A stretch of DNA of 64,000 bases from Konateibacter massiliensis. Its GTDB lineage: Bacteria; Bacillota; Clostridia; Lachnospirales; Lachnospiraceae. Shown one piece after another: positions 31,751-43,500 of this stretch. Position 1 is the first letter of the stretch; each line of letters begins with the position of its first letter. The position numbers and the translations under genes are program-made. The notes beneath the pieces are model-generated. The model was not told the DNA's origin and did no database searches. It was given only the letters and a program-made list of their open reading frames with translations. The DNA lies in the NCBI RefSeq assembly GCF_900184995.1, contig NZ_LT860099.1, forward strand, positions 832,269-896,268, written 5' to 3'.

Positions 31751-31844
31751 TATATTTTCCAATGTACTAATTCTACACATTTCCAAACGTTAGTACAATG
31801 TTTATCACTACTCAAATGCTTAATTTCACTACATTCCTTAGAAC

Positions 31845-31937
31845 TTACCAGCGTCCGCAGCTTCCTGGATCGAAGCAGTAGCCCTTGATTTTACTAGGTT
31901 TAAACCCCCTATTGTTTGTTACCAGAGTGTTACTCAT
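31845..31937 (-). CDS. Possible 30-residue peptide with C-terminal Cys pair
   Basis: Small minus-strand ORF ending KGYCFDPGSCGRW. The tail looks protein-like, with two cysteines six residues apart and glycines, but no convincing ribosome site precedes the ATG. It may be a RiPP-type precursor, the end of a degraded gene, or chance. It lies between the endolysin and the hairpin at 31704. Confidence 0.3.
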   Translation of the reverse strand: MSNTLVTNNRGFKPSKIKGYCFDPGSCGRW

Positions 31938-32024: not shown

Positions 32025-33305
32025 TTATATCTTTGTGCAGTAGTCAAGAGCTATCCAGCCTGCGCCGCTCTTCAATTTTCCCCAGCCTTTCACGCTGCCT
32101 TTTCCCTCTTTCTCTTCTGTGATAGTAAATGTGCCTTTTCCCGTGTATTCCCCTGTTGCTGCATAGTTCGTGCCTGCCCCTGTCCTTATACGTAGGTCTA
32201 AGGTGTCAACCTTTACCTTATACGGTGTTTTAATCTCCGCTGCCTTTACCTCTGCTTGGCTGCCGCTTCTGTCCCCAGCATATTTGTTGTAATAAATTAC
32301 GCCGTATTCAGCCCTCTTTTTCTTTACTGCCTCGCTCTGGTCTGCTGGTTTCTCATATCCAGTCAATACCGCATCAGATGCCGCCTGCACCGTTCCTGCT
32401 CCCTTTAGTGCTGCCATGACTGACTTGTATCCCTGCAATTCCTGCCACAAAAAGGAAAGCTGCATGTTCAAATTTCCGATAGAAGCACCCGCAGCCTTTG
32501 CGCAATCAAGTAACGCCTGCTTTCGTGTGTAATACGTCCATTGTGCCAGCCCATAGCCCGCACTGTCTTTTACAAAGTTCTTATAACTTCCATTGTCTAC
32601 GGCTGCCGTGTACTCTGTATCATTCATGCCCAGCTTGGTATTATACGTGTTTTGCAAATTGCAGGCATTAAGCCCGCTTTCAGCATGCAAGTTACCCATA
32701 ACGCCCGCTGCTGCGCATGTGTTTAAGCCTTTGCTTATCAGAAAGTCCCAGATTGTCTTTTCTGTGCTTGTTTCGCTTGCAGTGCTGCCGCTGCTGACTT
32801 TGTTTTTAAATTCTTCCCATGTATGCCCTGTGGTGTTATATACATACGGGTTAGGGCAAACCTTGCCCGTTACGTCGTAGTGTCTTATCACATTCGACGC
32901 AGGCACGTTGTATTTTTCCATTAAGTACCTTGTCAGCTCCGCTGCACTTTCTACGGTTGCGTCCTCAAAATACCAGTCTTTATCATTAGCGCCCAGACTT
33001 GCCGTATTTTTCTTTCTCACACACATTTCAATGCCGATAGAGTTAGCGTTTCTGCACTCTGCATGCTTATATGTATTCGCCCCGCAATGCCATGCTATGT
33101 TAGCATCTTCCACACTCTGCCATATCGCCCCGTCAAATCCTACAAAGTAATGAGCTGACGCATTACGGTTGCCGCCAGCATAATACTGACAATTTTCCGT
33201 TGCACCGCCCAGCGCTCCCACGTAATGAATGACAATATATTTAATTCGTGAAGCATTTCCCGCATTGTGATTGTATCCCGTCAAAAGTTTATTGATTGTT
33301 TTCAT
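32025..33305 (-). CDS. Phage endolysin: amidase, tail-lysozyme-type and SH3 domains
   Basis: 426 residues. An N-terminal Amidase_2 domain (about 1-145) carries the zinc ligands in YIVIHYVG and HYDVTGKVCP. The middle (about 155-310) is a phage tail-lysozyme-type domain (AAGVMGNLHAESGLN, GYGLAQWTYYTRKQ), probably a second catalytic unit with the Glu in NLHAESG. A bacterial SH3 domain (about 350-426) would bind the wall. N-acetylmuramoyl-L-alanine amidase activity is expected. It lies directly downstream of the holin gene. Confidence 0.93.
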   Translation of the reverse strand: MKTINKLLTGYNHNAGNASRIKYIVIHYVGALGGATENCQYYAGGNRNASAHYFVGFDGAIWQSVEDANIAWHCGANTYKHAECRNANSIGIEMCVRKKNTASLGANDKDWYFEDATVESAAELTRYLMEKYNVPASNVIRHYDVTGKVCPNPYVYNTTGHTWEEFKNKVSSGSTASETSTEKTIWDFLISKGLNTCAAAGVMGNLHAESGLNACNLQNTYNTKLGMNDTEYTAAVDNGSYKNFVKDSAGYGLAQWTYYTRKQALLDCAKAAGASIGNLNMQLSFLWQELQGYKSVMAALKGAGTVQAASDAVLTGYEKPADQSEAVKKKRAEYGVIYYNKYAGDRSGSQAEVKAAEIKTPYKVKVDTLDLRIRTGAGTNYAATGEYTGKGTFTITEEKEGKGSVKGWGKLKSGAGWIALDYCTKI

Positions 33306-33379: not shown

Positions 33380-33862
33380 TTATTCTTTTTTGTATGAGTA
33401 TGTATCCTTTCCCCCTGCGCTGCCGTCCAGTTCGTCTGTGTCTGGCAGTTCATCTGTATACTTTGTTAAAAAAGCTCTCACTTTTTCCCATACCCTTTTT
33501 ACTGGCAGCCCGCATAATGTCATGTTTTTAAAGATGCTTGTAATTTCATAGGCAATGTAAAGCAAAGAGAAAAATTCTGCTACGCCTACGCTTGTAAGTC
33601 CTAAATAAGTCCTTACCGTCTCTGGGATAAATCCGATAAGATTTATTTTAACCAGTAAGTCGATTGCCAGCATAAACACTAAAGAAATCAACATAGCTAC
33701 TTTTCTGATTGCTCCATTGATGCCAGCGCAGCTATTGAACTTTCTTTCTTTGATTGCCCGTAATACTCCAAAAATCGTATCGAATACGATAGCCAATACT
33801 ACCAGCTGAATAATTTTGTTATGTGTTCCTGCGTTGATAAATTCCATAAATTTCATTTCCAT
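33380..33862 (-). CDS. Phage holin (toxin-secretion/phage-lysis type)
   Basis: 160 residues with three to four membrane segments (IIQLVVLAIVFDTIFGVL, VAMLISLVFMLAIDLL, VGVAEFFSLLYIAYEI) and a hydrophilic tail, the pattern of the Cph1/TcdE holin superfamily. It forms the membrane lesion that lets the endolysin out. AGGTAGG precedes the ATG. Confidence 0.88.
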   Translation of the reverse strand: MEMKFMEFINAGTHNKIIQLVVLAIVFDTIFGVLRAIKERKFNSCAGINGAIRKVAMLISLVFMLAIDLLVKINLIGFIPETVRTYLGLTSVGVAEFFSLLYIAYEITSIFKNMTLCGLPVKRVWEKVRAFLTKYTDELPDTDELDGSAGGKDTYSYKKE

Positions 33863-34061: not shown

Positions 34062-35123
34062 CTATGCCCCTGCCTTTATGGCATCAGCTGCCAGCGCTAT
34101 AATTTTCTTTTGTAAGTGGTAGCTGTCTGCGTGCCCTGCATGCCCCGTCCAGCTGTCTATACTCTTTTGCAGCTGCTCTTTTGTTATCGTTCCTTTCTGG
34201 TACTTCTTAATTGTTCTTTTGATACGCTTGATACTGTCACGCCTAACCTTTCTATGCGTAGCCCTGTGCTTGTATCCTACAAAATCTATGCCGTTTTTTG
34301 CTGCCAAAATTGTAGTTTTAGGGTTAAGCTCTAACCGCAGCTCTTCCCTCAAAAACCTTTCAATATCTGCCAACCAGTACCGCAGCTGCTCTTTATCTGG
34401 GCTTGATATGATAAAGTCGTCCATGTAGCGCATATAGTGCCTTGCGCCCAGATTATGCTTAACATACTGGTCTAATCTATTGAGGTATACATTGGCAAAC
34501 AGCTGGCTTGTAAGGTTTCCTACTGGTATGCCTGTGCCGTCTGGCATTGTCCCGTTATGGTCTATAATTTCGTCCGTCAGTCTCAAAGTGCCAGTGTCTT
34601 TTATAACCTTGCGTATTTCAGCCTTAAGCACGTCATGGTTAATACTTTGGAAATAATGGTGTATGTCTGCCTTTATGACATATAGCGGCTGTTCTGGGTG
34701 AAATTTCTGCCACACATGCAGCCAGTCTTTTAGTGTATCAGATGCACCGTGCATGCCTTTGCCTTTTCGGCAGGCGTAGGAATGAAAAATAAACCTTTTA
34801 TTGAAAAGAGGTTCTAACACATTGTTTACGGTATGTTGTATCACTCTGTCATAAAAAGGCAGCGCCATTATCTGCCGCTCTTTTGGTTCGAACACTTTAA
34901 AGTATCGGTATTCGCTCGGCTTGTAAGTCAGATTGATAATGTCATTGCGTACCTTTTCTAAATTTTCCTCTTTGTCTTTTGTAAAAATAAGCACTTCTTT
35001 TCTGTACCTCTTGCACTTTCTGGCTTTGTTGTAGGCTTTCTGTACGTTCTCATATTCAGCCATAACCTCTACCAGTGTTACTGTATCCCCTCTTTTGTTT
35101 GTAACGTGCCCTATTCGTTTCAA
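34062..35123 (-). CDS. DGR reverse transcriptase
   Basis: 353 residues. Copies the template RNA with adenine-specific errors for mutagenic homing. The palm motifs are visible: IKADIHHYF at about 150-158 (first catalytic Asp), GIPVGNLTSQ at 198-207, and YMDD at 233-236. VGNLTSQ fits the [IVL]GxxxSQ form that separates DGR enzymes from group II intron and retron RTs. No maturase or endonuclease domain is present. TTG start with AGGGG upstream. It sits after target gene, avd and template repeat on the same strand, the classic cassette order. Confidence 0.95.
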   Translation of the reverse strand: MKRIGHVTNKRGDTVTLVEVMAEYENVQKAYNKARKCKRYRKEVLIFTKDKEENLEKVRNDIINLTYKPSEYRYFKVFEPKERQIMALPFYDRVIQHTVNNVLEPLFNKRFIFHSYACRKGKGMHGASDTLKDWLHVWQKFHPEQPLYVIKADIHHYFQSINHDVLKAEIRKVIKDTGTLRLTDEIIDHNGTMPDGTGIPVGNLTSQLFANVYLNRLDQYVKHNLGARHYMRYMDDFIISSPDKEQLRYWLADIERFLREELRLELNPKTTILAAKNGIDFVGYKHRATHRKVRRDSIKRIKRTIKKYQKGTITKEQLQKSIDSWTGHAGHADSYHLQKKIIALAADAIKAGA

Positions 35124-35290
35124 TATTGCAAGCCCCTGCCTTTCGCCGCAGCTACTAACCAGCAGCCGTATTTTTTCTCTTTGCCTTACGGCGGGACAAC
35201 CGCTCTGACTATAGAATATTAAGCACTTGCCTATATTCAGTGTCCTTGCTAGTGTTCCATAGAAACGCTAAGCCTATAATGCTCTCACTA

Positions 35291-35416
35291 AGTCACACGC
35301 CCCACGAACCCCAATGTTCGCGTTGACATTCCACGGATAATTGTTGCAATTCACGGCACGGGAACCCGCATTAACGCCATTGTTCCAATTGCCGCCCGCT
35401 ATCAGCGCTGCCAAAG
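35291..35416 (-). repeat. DGR template repeat (TR)
   Basis: 126 bp matching 35855-35980. On the sense strand it holds nine AAT/AAC codons, an ATA and a TAT at the places that vary in the target. No protein reads through it; with the noncoding 35124-35290 and the spacer toward avd it would form the DGR template RNA that primes and templates cDNA synthesis. The 323-bp gap between RT and avd is therefore RNA-coding rather than empty. Confidence 0.95.
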
Positions 35417-35447
35417 GGCTGTAGTAAGCAGCTGCCCCATATAAAGG

Positions 35448-35804
35448 CTATTTCTTTGCCTTAACCTCTTCTATCAGTTCTCCCAGCATAATGCCTATTT
35501 CTTTTAGCTTTCTGCCGCTCTCTCCATAGTGCTGCGTGTTCATGGCGCTATACTTTAGGTCATTTGCAAGCCTTATAAGCTCCTTGCTTTCTTGTAACGC
35601 CGTGTCCGCAGCATATAAATGGCTTTTCGTCCCCGTCTTATCCCATTTCACAACCTCTAACAATATTTCCAGTATTGCGTTTCTGGTTGCTGTCTGTAAG
35701 CTGAATTTTTCATACTTTGGGTACTTACTTAGCAGTGGATAGATATATAGCAAGAAGTCGTATATTTTCTGGTGTAATCTGTCTGTTTTGTCTTGTAGTG
35801 TCAC
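35448..35804 (-). CDS. avd: Avd, DGR accessory variability protein
   Basis: 118 residues, all-helical, of the four-helix-bundle (S23-like) Avd family: LQDKTDRLHQKIYDFLLYIYPLLSKYPK at the start, TATRNAILEILLEV in the middle, KLKEIGIMLGELIEE at the end. Avd forms a basic pentamer that binds the RT and template RNA and is needed for mutagenic homing. GTG start. It lies 42 nt after the target gene and directly before the template repeat. Confidence 0.9.
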   Translation of the reverse strand: MTLQDKTDRLHQKIYDFLLYIYPLLSKYPKYEKFSLQTATRNAILEILLEVVKWDKTGTKSHLYAADTALQESKELIRLANDLKYSAMNTQHYGESGRKLKEIGIMLGELIEEVKAKK

Positions 35805-35826
35805 GCCTCATAAACTCCCCTCTTTC

Positions 35827-35845
35827 GGCTGGGCTTTCGCCCGCC
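35827..35845 (-). promoter_or_regulatory. GAAA-loop hairpin downstream of the variable repeat
   Basis: On the sense strand GGCGGGC-GAAA-GCCCAGCC, a 7-bp stem with one bulged A, one base after the target stop codon. In the Bordetella phage DGR a GRNA-tetraloop hairpin/cruciform at this place is needed for homing, so this is the likely counterpart. Confidence 0.75.
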
Positions 35846-35846
35846 T

Positions 35847-36974
35847 CTACATGGAGTCACACGCCCCACGAACCCCAATGCTCGCGTGGACAGCCCACGG
35901 ACAATAGTGGCAATACACGGCACGGGAACCCGCAGGAACGCCATTGCCCCAATAGCCGCCCGCTAACAGCGCTGCCAAAGAATAAGCATAATACTGGTAA
36001 ATGTTCCCGTGTTTGTCGCCTAATGGGCTTTTCAAATCCCAGCCCCATGCCTGCGTTGCGTGATAAGTTGCGTCTGTTACGTGTTCCGCTCTTGTTATAA
36101 GGTCATTCAGCCATTCCCACACACGCCCCACGGCATCTACGCAGCCTACAGTAGAAACAGCATTTACAACGCTGCCAGTCACTCCACGCCCCGTATTGGT
36201 GCTGGCGCTCCATGCGTTTGTATTTGCATCTGCTAAGCCCTGCGGACTTCCAAAGGCATAAGCGCAAAACTCACTATAATCTGGCATGCGCTTGCCGCTC
36301 TTCATAAGCCTTTCGGTAAAGGTGTACCAGTTCATGCCCTCTGTGCCTGTCATTGGTGCGCTATTGTATTCTGACTTTAAGCCATATGCGCCGTCGTCAG
36401 AGTTTAAGTAAATATCAATCCATGTGCCGCCACCTAAGTACGTCATGCCCTCTGGGTTACATTTGGGGCGGTGTCCCAATGTCCATACGCTGCGTGGTAC
36501 AATTCCGTTGCTTACCGCACTTTCCCAGCCAGTACCAAAAATAACGCCGCTGCCGTTCACTGGCTGCATATTGCTGTCAACCTTTCGGCATCTGCCATAA
36601 TGAAAGCCGCCAATTTTACGGCTATTACTTGCGTTCCAGCCAGACGGATACGTAGAGTTAAGAGAAATAATATAGGTTTCGTCTGCGCTATCTACCCTAC
36701 TATCGCAGATATAAACGTAGTAATCATTTCCCACGCTAAATGCGCTGCCAATATCCAAATTTCCTGCGGTCAATCTCGTTGCTGCCGTCTGGAAAATCCC
36801 CGCACCGCCTACAGCAATTACGCACCCGTCAACTAAAGTAAGCTCGTCAGCTCCACTGGCGTATAAATACTCATTGTTTGGCGCTACAATGTCGCTGATT
36901 GTTGCCATTTTGTTTACGTTTAAAAGTGCCCTGCGGTCTGTTTTTGTAATGTCGTCTACCAATAATCTACTCAT
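35847..36974 (-). CDS. DGR-diversified receptor-binding protein, C-type-lectin-like fold
   Basis: 375 residues. The N-terminal part (MSRLLVDDITKTDRR and following) is probably the tail-attachment region. The C-terminal 200 residues have the formylglycine-generating-enzyme/C-type lectin style (RMPDYSEFCAYAFG, GRVWEWLND, LAGGYWGNG, SIGVRGACDS). The variable repeat covers residues 332-374; codons differing from the template encode L, Y, G, P, Y, H, Y, C, A, H and S. Expected to be the tail-tip ligand for the host surface. Its start overlaps the preceding gene by 8 bases. Confidence 0.93.
   Translation of the reverse strand: MSRLLVDDITKTDRRALLNVNKMATISDIVAPNNEYLYASGADELTLVDGCVIAVGGAGIFQTAATRLTAGNLDIGSAFSVGNDYYVYICDSRVDSADETYIISLNSTYPSGWNASNSRKIGGFHYGRCRKVDSNMQPVNGSGVIFGTGWESAVSNGIVPRSVWTLGHRPKCNPEGMTYLGGGTWIDIYLNSDDGAYGLKSEYNSAPMTGTEGMNWYTFTERLMKSGKRMPDYSEFCAYAFGSPQGLADANTNAWSASTNTGRGVTGSVVNAVSTVGCVDAVGRVWEWLNDLITRAEHVTDATYHATQAWGWDLKSPLGDKHGNIYQYYAYSLAALLAGGYWGNGVPAGSRAVYCHYCPWAVHASIGVRGACDSM
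35855..35980 (-). repeat. DGR variable repeat (VR)
   Basis: 126 bp aligned without gaps to 35291-35416. The 14 substitutions fall in 11 codons and all replace template A's on the sense strand (to T, G or C). The 3' end (GGTTCGTGGGGCGTGTGACT) is identical to the template and is G-rich, as expected for the initiation site of mutagenic homing. Confidence 0.95.
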
Positions 36975-40594: not shown

Positions 40595-43500
40595 TTATAC
40601 CGTCCTTGCTATCATTTTAAACTGCCTAGCTGCCTCTTTCTGCTGCTTAGCATAGTCTGTAGTATCTGCGTATATGTTCTGAATGACCGTAAATCCTGCC
40701 CCGCCGCCTTTTTTCGGTTTTGGGTTCTTTCCGTCGTCAAAGTCAATGTCTTTGCTTACATTAACCTTAGCGCCTATATCAAACTCGCTTGGTATAGCGT
40801 CCTCAATTTGTTTGTTTACATTCTCCATTTCATCAGAGAAACCAACGCCAATACCCTGCGCCATATATACGCCTACCTCGTCTCTAAACTTCCTTGACGG
40901 GCTGTTAATGTCTAAAGCGTCCTTTGCAGCATCTAAAAGGCTGCTTGCAAGGCTTTTAACTTTGTCTTTCAACCAGTCCCAGCCTGCGCTTATTCCGTCC
41001 CAGATGCCAGAAACAATGTTGCCGCCGATTGTCTTAAAATCACTGCCGATATTGGAAAAGGCATCTTTAATGCCCGTTACGCAATTTTTCATACCCTCTA
41101 CGGCTTTGTCTTTTACTTCTGTGCCCCATGTAGTCACTTTTGAGATAGCCCCAGAAATACTGTTATATATCTTTTCTGGAATTTCTTTTACCACGGTTAC
41201 AATGCCCGTAACCATGCTATTCATTACCTCTTTTGCTTTTTCAAGCATATTACTGCCCCATGTTGCCACCTTTGTAACAGCTCCTATGATGCTATTCCAT
41301 ATTTTCTCTGGTGTCTGGGTTACGATTGTTACAATGCCCGTAAGCATGGTGTTCATTACTTCTTTTGCTTTTTCAAGCATGTTGCCGCCCCATGTTGCCA
41401 CCTTGGTAACAGCTCCTATGATGCTATTCCATATTTTCTCTGGTGTCTGGGTTACAATAGCCACAATGCCCGTAAGCATAACATTCATTACCTCTTTTGC
41501 CTTGGTAAGCATGTTTAAGCCCCATGTCGCTATTTTGTTTACCGCATCAGAAACGCTGTTCGCTATTGCTTCTGGCACTGTTTTTGTAATACTAAGTATG
41601 CTATCTTTCATGTTTGAAATGACTTGCATTGCTTTTGCTGGCAGTTCTTTTATTCCATTCAGCATGCCAGCTACCAAAAAGCCGCCCTGCTCTGCCATGA
41701 CAGTAGAGGGGCTGTTAATGCCGAAAAATTTCTTTATTCCGTTTAAGATTTCCTTGCCAATTTCAAGTATTGCCTGCCCCACTTTTGGTATGCCGTCAAC
41801 CAATCCCTTAACCAGCCCAGTTATAATATGTGGTATGGCTTCGTCTAAGGATTTTTTAACCTCTGGTATTGCCTTAATCATTGCCCCCAGCAACGTTATA
41901 CTTGCTTTCAGTATCTTTGGTGCTGCTGCCGCCAGCCCTGTTACTATAGCGGTTATGATTTCTGGCAGTGCCTCTACCAGCTGCGGTATCGCTTGTATTA
42001 GCCCGTCTGCCAAAGCCGTTATTATCACTGCTGCATTTTCCAGAATAAGGGGTACTGCTTCTGTAATGTAATTTATGTAGGTCTTTATTATTTCTGGTAG
42101 TGCTGCTATTAATACTGGTAAAGCATTAACCAGCCCTTGCACCAAACCTTTTATAAGTTCCAATCCCGCATTAATCAATAATGGAGCGTTTTCTATAAGT
42201 GTCTGAACAACCATAAGCACCGCTTCTATTATGCTTGGTATCAGTCCTGGTAACGCTTGCGCCATGCCCTCTGCCAGCCCAACAATAATGTTTGCTGCGC
42301 CCTCTGCTATCGTTGGTATCAAATCCACTATGCCGCTAATCAGTGTTGTAATAATCTCAACGGCGCTTTGGGTAAGCGTTGGAATTGTCTGTATAATTCC
42401 GTCTGTCAATGACTTAAGCATATCAACGCCAGCCTGCACGATTGTAGGCGCATTTTGTACGATACCGTCGCCCAATCCCTTTACAATTTCTACGGCAAAC
42501 TGTGCTATTTGCGGTATCATTTCCGTTAAGCCACTAACCATATTCTTTAGTGCCGTTCCGAAACTTTCAGCCAGTTTTCCAACGTCGCCGCCTGCCTCTG
42601 CTGCCCCTGTTTGTAGCTCATTTGCAAATTGGCTAAATATTGGTAATGCCTGCTCGCCTATCGGCATGATAAAGCTGGTTTGCAATATCCTGCCTGCCCC
42701 CTGCATAGCCTCGCCAAAGGTATCATACTTTATGGCATTGATTGCCCCCATAGCGTCTGTGGTCTTGCTTATCTGTCCGTCCACATTCATTAGTGAGGTC
42801 ATAGCATCAGCGCCCATATCTTCCCACATAGTACCCATTAAACCTACGCCAGCGGTGTATTGCAGTGTCGTGTCGTCCGTATTTTTCAGTGCCTCGCTAA
42901 TTTTGCTCATTGCCTCTTTCGCACCGTCGCCGCCTGCTTGGAATTTTCCTACTAATTCTTTTGCATTAAGCCCCAGACTGGTAAGGTAGTCATTGGCTGT
43001 ACCGTCATTCATACGTATACTAAATTCCTTAAATGCGTCGCCCATTTTGTCAACGCTCCACACGCCCGTATCAGCGCCATTTTTTATTGAATTAAACATA
43101 TCCTCTGCGCTTAACCCAGCCTGCGCATACTGATTGCTGTATTCATTGATAACGTCCAGCAAATCCCCGTTTTTATTTAATCCACTCTGTGCGCCCTGCG
43201 CAATTAGGTTATAAGCCTCGTCGCCGCTTACTCCAAACTTTTGCATAAGCTGCGTAGCTGCTCTTGTGCTTTCTGCAACGTCCATATCAAACGTATCACG
43301 CAGGGTTAATGCGTTCGTTGTCATTTTTTCCAGCTCGTCTGCGCCCATATCGCCTGCCTGCTGCTTTACAGTCGCCATAGATGCTGCTATGTCCTCGAAC
43401 CCCTCGCCATAATTCCCGTTGTAGATATTCTCCATAACTTGCTTATACTGGTCTGCCTCGTCCGTTGCTGTACCCGTTGATGCTACAAAGTCGTTTAATG

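Follow-up and report, generated by a model that had tools for sequence, protein, structure and literature searches.

The cassette at positions 34062-36974 of the window (the whole 64,000-nucleotide stretch of Konateibacter massiliensis DNA analysed here) is almost certainly a phage-encoded diversity-generating retroelement (DGR) that belongs with the BPP-1 or Mtd type. DGRs are programmed, targeted hypermutation systems in phages, and much of their mechanism is known from one Gram-negative phage. The original prediction, made from the letters of this DNA, had called the cassette a complete DGR, and our analysis supports this call: its reverse transcriptase (RT), its accessory protein (Avd) and its target are homologous to the corresponding BPP-1 parts, and they accompany a template repeat (TR) and a variable repeat (VR). 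The DGR family is already known, and the cassette is an ordinary, very complete and evidently active addition to it.

The two 126-bp repeats, both read on the minus strand, are the TR at 35291-35416 and the VR at 35855-35980, the latter lying at the 3' end of the target gene. As predicted, they align without gaps and differ at 14 positions in 11 codons, nine of which are AAY codons, and the changes include a Cys from TAT (TAT>TGT) and a Pro from AAT (AAT>CCT); overall, the VR is 89% identical to the TR. The claim that every difference falls on an adenine of the template sense strand likewise holds for 14 of 14 positions on the minus (coding) strand, with five A>G, five A>C and four A>T changes. 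Given 26 adenines among the 126 template bases, the chance of this outcome is 7e-12 (hypergeometric). An ordinary duplication, in which copies of a C-terminal segment diverged under selection on binding residues while an unrelated RT happened to lie nearby, would also leave a repeat pair, and one genome shows only such a pair. However, such a history sits badly with differences confined to a single letter of a single copy, with relatives that display the same adenine-specific pattern (see below), with a TR that falls outside every minus-strand frame of at least 60 aa, and with an RT and Avd that adjoin in the BPP-1 order. We therefore give it next to no credence.

Within the TR, 15 codons hold an adenine and one of them (GCA) is silent, leaving 14 codons that can be re-coded. 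When all A substitutions were expanded, none could create a stop codon, and roughly 1.9e14 proteins came within reach. The GC-rich 3' ends of TR and VR are identical in the window, with no IMH/IMH* difference; many distant relatives have C>T there, and we counted the lack of such a difference against the DGR reading. A whole-genome search with the template at E 0.001 returned only the template itself and the known VR, and a search of the window and of L096 for further VRs gave nothing beyond chance-level 13-base matches.

The gene that carries the VR (35847-36974, minus strand) encodes a 375-aa Mtd-type receptor-binding tail protein, with the VR at its C-terminal end. It matches PF21916 (mtd_2nd, 1.2e-40) and the tail protein family phrog_11262 (1.7e-92), as well as Mtd in the PDB (1yu1 at 1.1e-20 with phmmer; 1yu4 at 1.8e-32 with a profile, over positions 29-365 of 365), and the homology to Mtd extends through the VR. 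The putative C-type-lectin fold of the variable domain rests on this homology (1.8e-32), AlphaFold models of the target being poor (pLDDT 30.0 from nine close sequences and 48.7 from 26 sequences, with the C-terminal part lowest). In the phage collection, the target matched nine records at E 1e-5, all at 60% identity or less, and among 98 genomes (its own and relatives from the genus, family and order) it was found in its own and in G037 (53% identity) only. The proposed Avd homologue is a 118-aa protein (35448-35804, minus strand) that exceeds the cut-offs of both NCBIfam (NF033474 DivGenRetAVD, 87.7 bits against 80) and Pfam (PF22296 bAvd, 69 bits against 40) and also matches the Avd family phrog_3206.

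The RT (34062-35123, minus strand, 353 aa) has an open frame with both the VGNLTSQ and the YMDD motif, as had been claimed, and it begins with a TTG start that is conserved in 11 of 11 loci (L003-L013). It matches RVT_1 (4.4e-21) and phrog_1423 (1.4e-135), and its best solved match is the BPP-1 RT (8ub7, 9e-52). One might suspect that the enzyme serves a group II intron, a retron or a DRT defence system and that the repeats are coincidental, since group II intron, Drt3a and retron models, together with 78 PADLOC models, match it as well. Yet all nine matches to NCBIfam RT models lie far below cut-off (the best being 144/300, 76/200 and 60/235 bits), whereas the BPP-1 RT leads the solved matches by 104 bits (179 against 75 for the next). 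Besides, TR, VR and Avd adjoin the gene, and a repeat pair biased to one letter is present in 67 of the best 80 of 434 confirmed genome loci. In a tree of 34 RTs (19 chosen DGR RTs plus those 15 of 19 non-DGR candidates, L106-L124, that passed a length filter), the cassette RT falls into well-supported sets of four (100/100) and eight (99/99) rows consisting exclusively of DGR RTs. A single clade of all 19 labelled DGR RTs was marginally rejected (AU test, p-AU 0.045), which we count against the DGR reading; this is because the unlabelled L119, in whose 2741 bp no repeats were found, falls among the labelled DGR RTs. Taken together, the RT groups with DGR RTs, so that a placement outside the DGR clade, which the original prediction had named as refuting, did not come about; a role in one of the other systems appears so improbable as to be negligible.

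To assess the DGR across its relatives, we compared the window with 11 viral-contig loci and the best 80 of 434 confirmed genome loci (92 sources in total). In 78 of the 92, we found a repeat pair with 70% or more of its differences on a single template letter; the exceptions were L013, L025, L031, L034, L051, L052, L067, L068, L071, L076, L086, L088, L090 and L091. The RT was 74-83% identical in the 17 genome loci L014-L030, 11 of which are labelled Lachnospiraceae. In 25 close TR/VR pairs, 296 of 304 differences fell at template adenines, corresponding to 46% of adenines versus 0.32% of other sites. This set excludes L003 (same as the window) and L013, both set aside in advance, as well as L005 with its one-base indel and L025, which yielded no pair; as two VRs occur twice, it comprises 23 distinct VRs. 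A side observation concerns L029, whose adenine-poor TR (17 adenines) shows just four differences from its VR, so that the template is seemingly partly fixed.

The original prediction had further stated that homing has happened. Taken alone, a single genome attests to adenine-specific divergence only, and it is from the relatives that recent homing follows. In 11 loci chosen for their similar TRs, VRs compared at shared template bases differed at 803 of 1451 adenine sites and at 48 of 5423 others (55 pairs, sharing members), which agrees with the A-confined change that had been suggested as a check and not with the equal rate at other sites that would have refuted the prediction; the TRs of these loci differed by 1.0 and their upstream 600 bp by 40.6 on average. 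Between L006 and L030, one of 600 upstream positions and none in the TR differ, whereas the VR differs at 18 of 27 adenine sites and two of 99 others. This is the pattern that recent mutagenic homing predicts. Similarly, L010 and L021 differ at three of 600 upstream positions, and their VRs at 14 of 26 adenine sites and none of 98 others. Judged from such sequence comparisons, activity of the DGR in this lineage is well supported.

This bears on the question of whether the DGR, although once functional, is now inactive in this genome, its VR being a fossil of past homing. A single VR state is known for the strain, as would suit this explanation; L003 shows no difference across the 7124 bp that were compared and probably represents this very genome. 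On the other hand, the RT frame is open and has its motifs, Avd, the hairpin and the RNA pairing (see below) are all kept, and relatives with near-identical flanks carry unlike VRs. We see only a slim chance that the element is inactive and favour a working DGR. Two further observations were counted against the DGR reading. In the metagenome contig L013, only 10 of 21 TR/VR differences fall at adenines; its TR seems to combine the L014 and L004 types, and its VR is of the L014 type, which points to a phage mosaic or an assembly chimera. The metagenome contigs L011 and L012 share a break in the RT frame: following IPV and ahead of the GNLTSQ motif, both carry a common foreign sequence (L011:4603-4666, L012:4603-4659). 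This sequence recurs twice at the opposite end of L101, close to a frame that we take to be AAA-ATPase-like, and probably marks where a mobile element ends.

Two parts of the cassette were absent from the original prediction, namely a hairpin after the VR and a conserved pairing of the spacer RNA with the 3' end of the template. The DNA hairpin (35827-35845, minus strand; GGC-GGGC-GAAA-GCCC-A-GCC) combines a 7-bp stem, one bulged A and a GAAA loop, and it lies 9 bp after the VR, directly past the stop codon of the target. The fold of the surrounding DNA (35815-35860) has a z of -2.7, with 2 of 200 shuffles equally good; an automated finder of perfect stems misses the hairpin because of the bulge. 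By eye, the motif is present in all 26 close sequences including the window (25 with GAAA, one with GGAA), and none of the 24 sequences checked has it in the segment that follows the TR. According to Guo 2011 (PMC3240598), BPP-1 homing requires the hairpin stem, an element by which BPP-1 recognises its target, and such elements have GC-rich stems of 7-10 bp with GRNA loops, 4-34 bp after the VR; in spacing, loop and stem, the hairpin described here fits that description.

The DGR RNA region (pre-TR, TR and spacer; 35193-35438, minus strand) was delimited with an 18-sequence alignment. Here, the pre-TR stretch 35438-35426 pairs with spacer positions 35205-35193, and the last five TR bases together with three spacer bases (35295-35288) pair with spacer positions 35214-35206. 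The pairing holds in 99.7% of 900 cells (18 distinct sequences), as compared to 35-49% for slid versions. Six pairs have changes on both sides, giving 16 such cells versus 3.1 in shuffles (0 of 500 reach it), while the number of further pair types, 18, is not above shuffles (489 of 500 reach it); the latter is the one of five covariation measures that fails to do so, and the structure tested was derived from the same 18-sequence alignment. Folded alone, the window's RNA region is weak (z -1.1, with 12 of 100 shuffles equally good), and this, like the unremarkable number of pair types, was counted against the DGR reading. Among 37 chosen sources, an RNA model of the TR end and spacer (R1) matched L025 at 1.3e-25 as well as ten loci at a greater distance (E 0.00014 to 0.13), some of which are near-copies of each other. 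In nine of the ten, R1 sits exactly at the TR 3' end, and in L034, in which no TR was identified, it sits upstream of the RT. R1 did not match the BPP-1 locus, and an Rfam search of window positions 30-40 kb returned nothing at gathering thresholds.

As for the error spectrum, A>G was the commonest change, both in the close pairs (195 of 296) and in 74 pairs (522 of 904; the 78 sources with a pair minus L003 and three of unequal length), with selection and codon position not separated from mutation in these and the following counts. In the 23 distinct close VRs, changed NAC sites had become G in 64, C in 10 and T in one case, and changed NAT sites G in 41, C in eight and T in 15 cases; A>T is hence nearly absent at NAC in the close clade (1/75 changes). 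In 49 distant VRs, A>C was lower at NAC than at NAT (27/207 versus 39/126). Relative to A>G, A>T was more frequent at the first A of AAC than at that of AAT (94:107 versus 32:64), with p 0.033 over the whole set and p 0.09 for the close clade. In E. coli, the BPP-1 RT reportedly misincorporates chiefly C, which gives A>G, and makes more A>C at NAC and more A>T where AAC has its first A (PMC12875486). By that account, our clade shares with the BPP-1 RT both the preference for A>G and the excess of A>T at that AAC position, but it lacks the rise of A>C at NAC.

Changes at bases other than adenine, eight in the close pairs, were counted against the DGR reading. Six of the eight are T>G, which is also the commonest non-adenine change in the 74 pairs (17 of 46, five at one position). 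At TR index 15, a T>G stands beside A14>G in L007, L019, L022, L024 and L030; by eye, it is found in five of seven close loci with A14>G and in none of 18 others, and it could mean that the RT misreads U, or else that recombination took place where the homing tract ends. It is conceivable that, in this Clostridia branch, Mtd-type DGRs employ a template RNA of their own, with a covarying clamp between TR 3' end and spacer that is unmatched in BPP-1, as well as partly their own error rules (A>T nearly never at AC, no raised A>C there, and occasional U misreading, visible as T>G, as a second mutagenic channel). For the time being, we consider this proposal rather unlikely, and the less likely in view of the A>G preference and the raised A>T that the clade shares with the BPP-1 RT.

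The cassette lies inside a prophage that spans ~34.8 kb from core to core. Its attL (31833-31871, 39 bp) has two mismatches to attR (C7:898940-898978), the latter being at the 3' end of a gene that is presumably serine-dehydratase-like, and an integrase gene (L096:2713-3789, PF00589) lies beside the att site. Outside the DGR, the adjoining context consists of an endolysin with amidase and tail lysozyme domains (32025-33305, minus strand; PF01510, PF18013) and a holin (33380-33862, minus strand; PF05105). The window also holds terminase, capsid, portal, tape measure and tail genes, and no tRNA was found in it. The tape-measure gene contains three 132-bp tandem units (44 codons each) at 41122-41517. 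Elsewhere in the same genome there is a second, unrelated DGR (G000:C7, about 309290-311825; L105:1292-3824). Its RT is 33% identical to the cassette RT, its Avd-like gene has a PHROG match and stays below the NCBIfam cut-off, its TR and VR (82 bp) differ at 14 positions, all at A, and its target has weak Hoc-like similarity.

As to how the cassette might work, we propose that an RNA of pre-TR, TR and spacer folds such that the 3' end of the TR is held against the spacer. From this template RT and Avd would then make a cDNA that carries many errors at positions facing an adenine, and this cDNA would replace the VR at the 3' end of the tail gene, with the GAAA hairpin and the GC-rich 3' end common to both repeats presumably serving as guides. 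In this scheme, the RNA intermediate, its priming, the direction of homing and the switching of receptors are carried over from the BPP-1 system. The receptor-binding protein would thereby be re-coded at up to 14 codons without incurring a stop, which may allow phage populations to sample, and switch between, receptors. While the cassette adds a member to the family and no new principle, the intact, evidently active BPP-1-type clade in Lachnospiraceae-type prophages offers a natural series for the study of template folding and error rules in different phage lineages. Less ordinary are the merely distant named phage relatives of the target, the near absence of A>T at AC sites, the occasional T>G and the presence of a second DGR.

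DGRs of gut phages are well documented: a large survey (PMC8144416) counts more than 30,000 DGRs in six lineages, three of them mostly phage, and a 2012 survey touches on DGRs, Lachnospiraceae and Mtd. Prophages of gut Firmicutes of the genus Faecalibacterium carry DGRs according to PMC5883640, which calls the targets of Lagaffe and Epona homologous to MTD. The RTs of FP_Lagaffe, FP_Mushu, FP_Toutatis and FP_Brigit are 34-39% identical to the cassette RT, and these four phages are outside the nine records that matched the cassette target at E 1e-5. The closest target among phage records is that of the Chromohalobacter phage YPCBV-1 (OP380511), a distant relative (target 38% identical over 81%, RT 37.8% identical). 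The RT-Avd-RNA complex of BPP-1 has been solved, and the RT and Avd chains of PDB entry 8ub7 match those of the cassette. Compared with BPP-1 itself (NC_005357), whose RT (Brt) is 34.5% identical to the cassette RT, the hairpin stem has 7 bp with a bulged A rather than 8 bp, the spacer measures 167 instead of 144 nt, and the TR starts 31 bp after the avd stop codon, whereas it abuts avd in BPP-1. Nonetheless, both elements follow the order mtd-VR-avd-TR-brt, with the VR at the 3' end of the target gene, a GAAA hairpin just past the stop codon, and the endolysin and att site on the same side.
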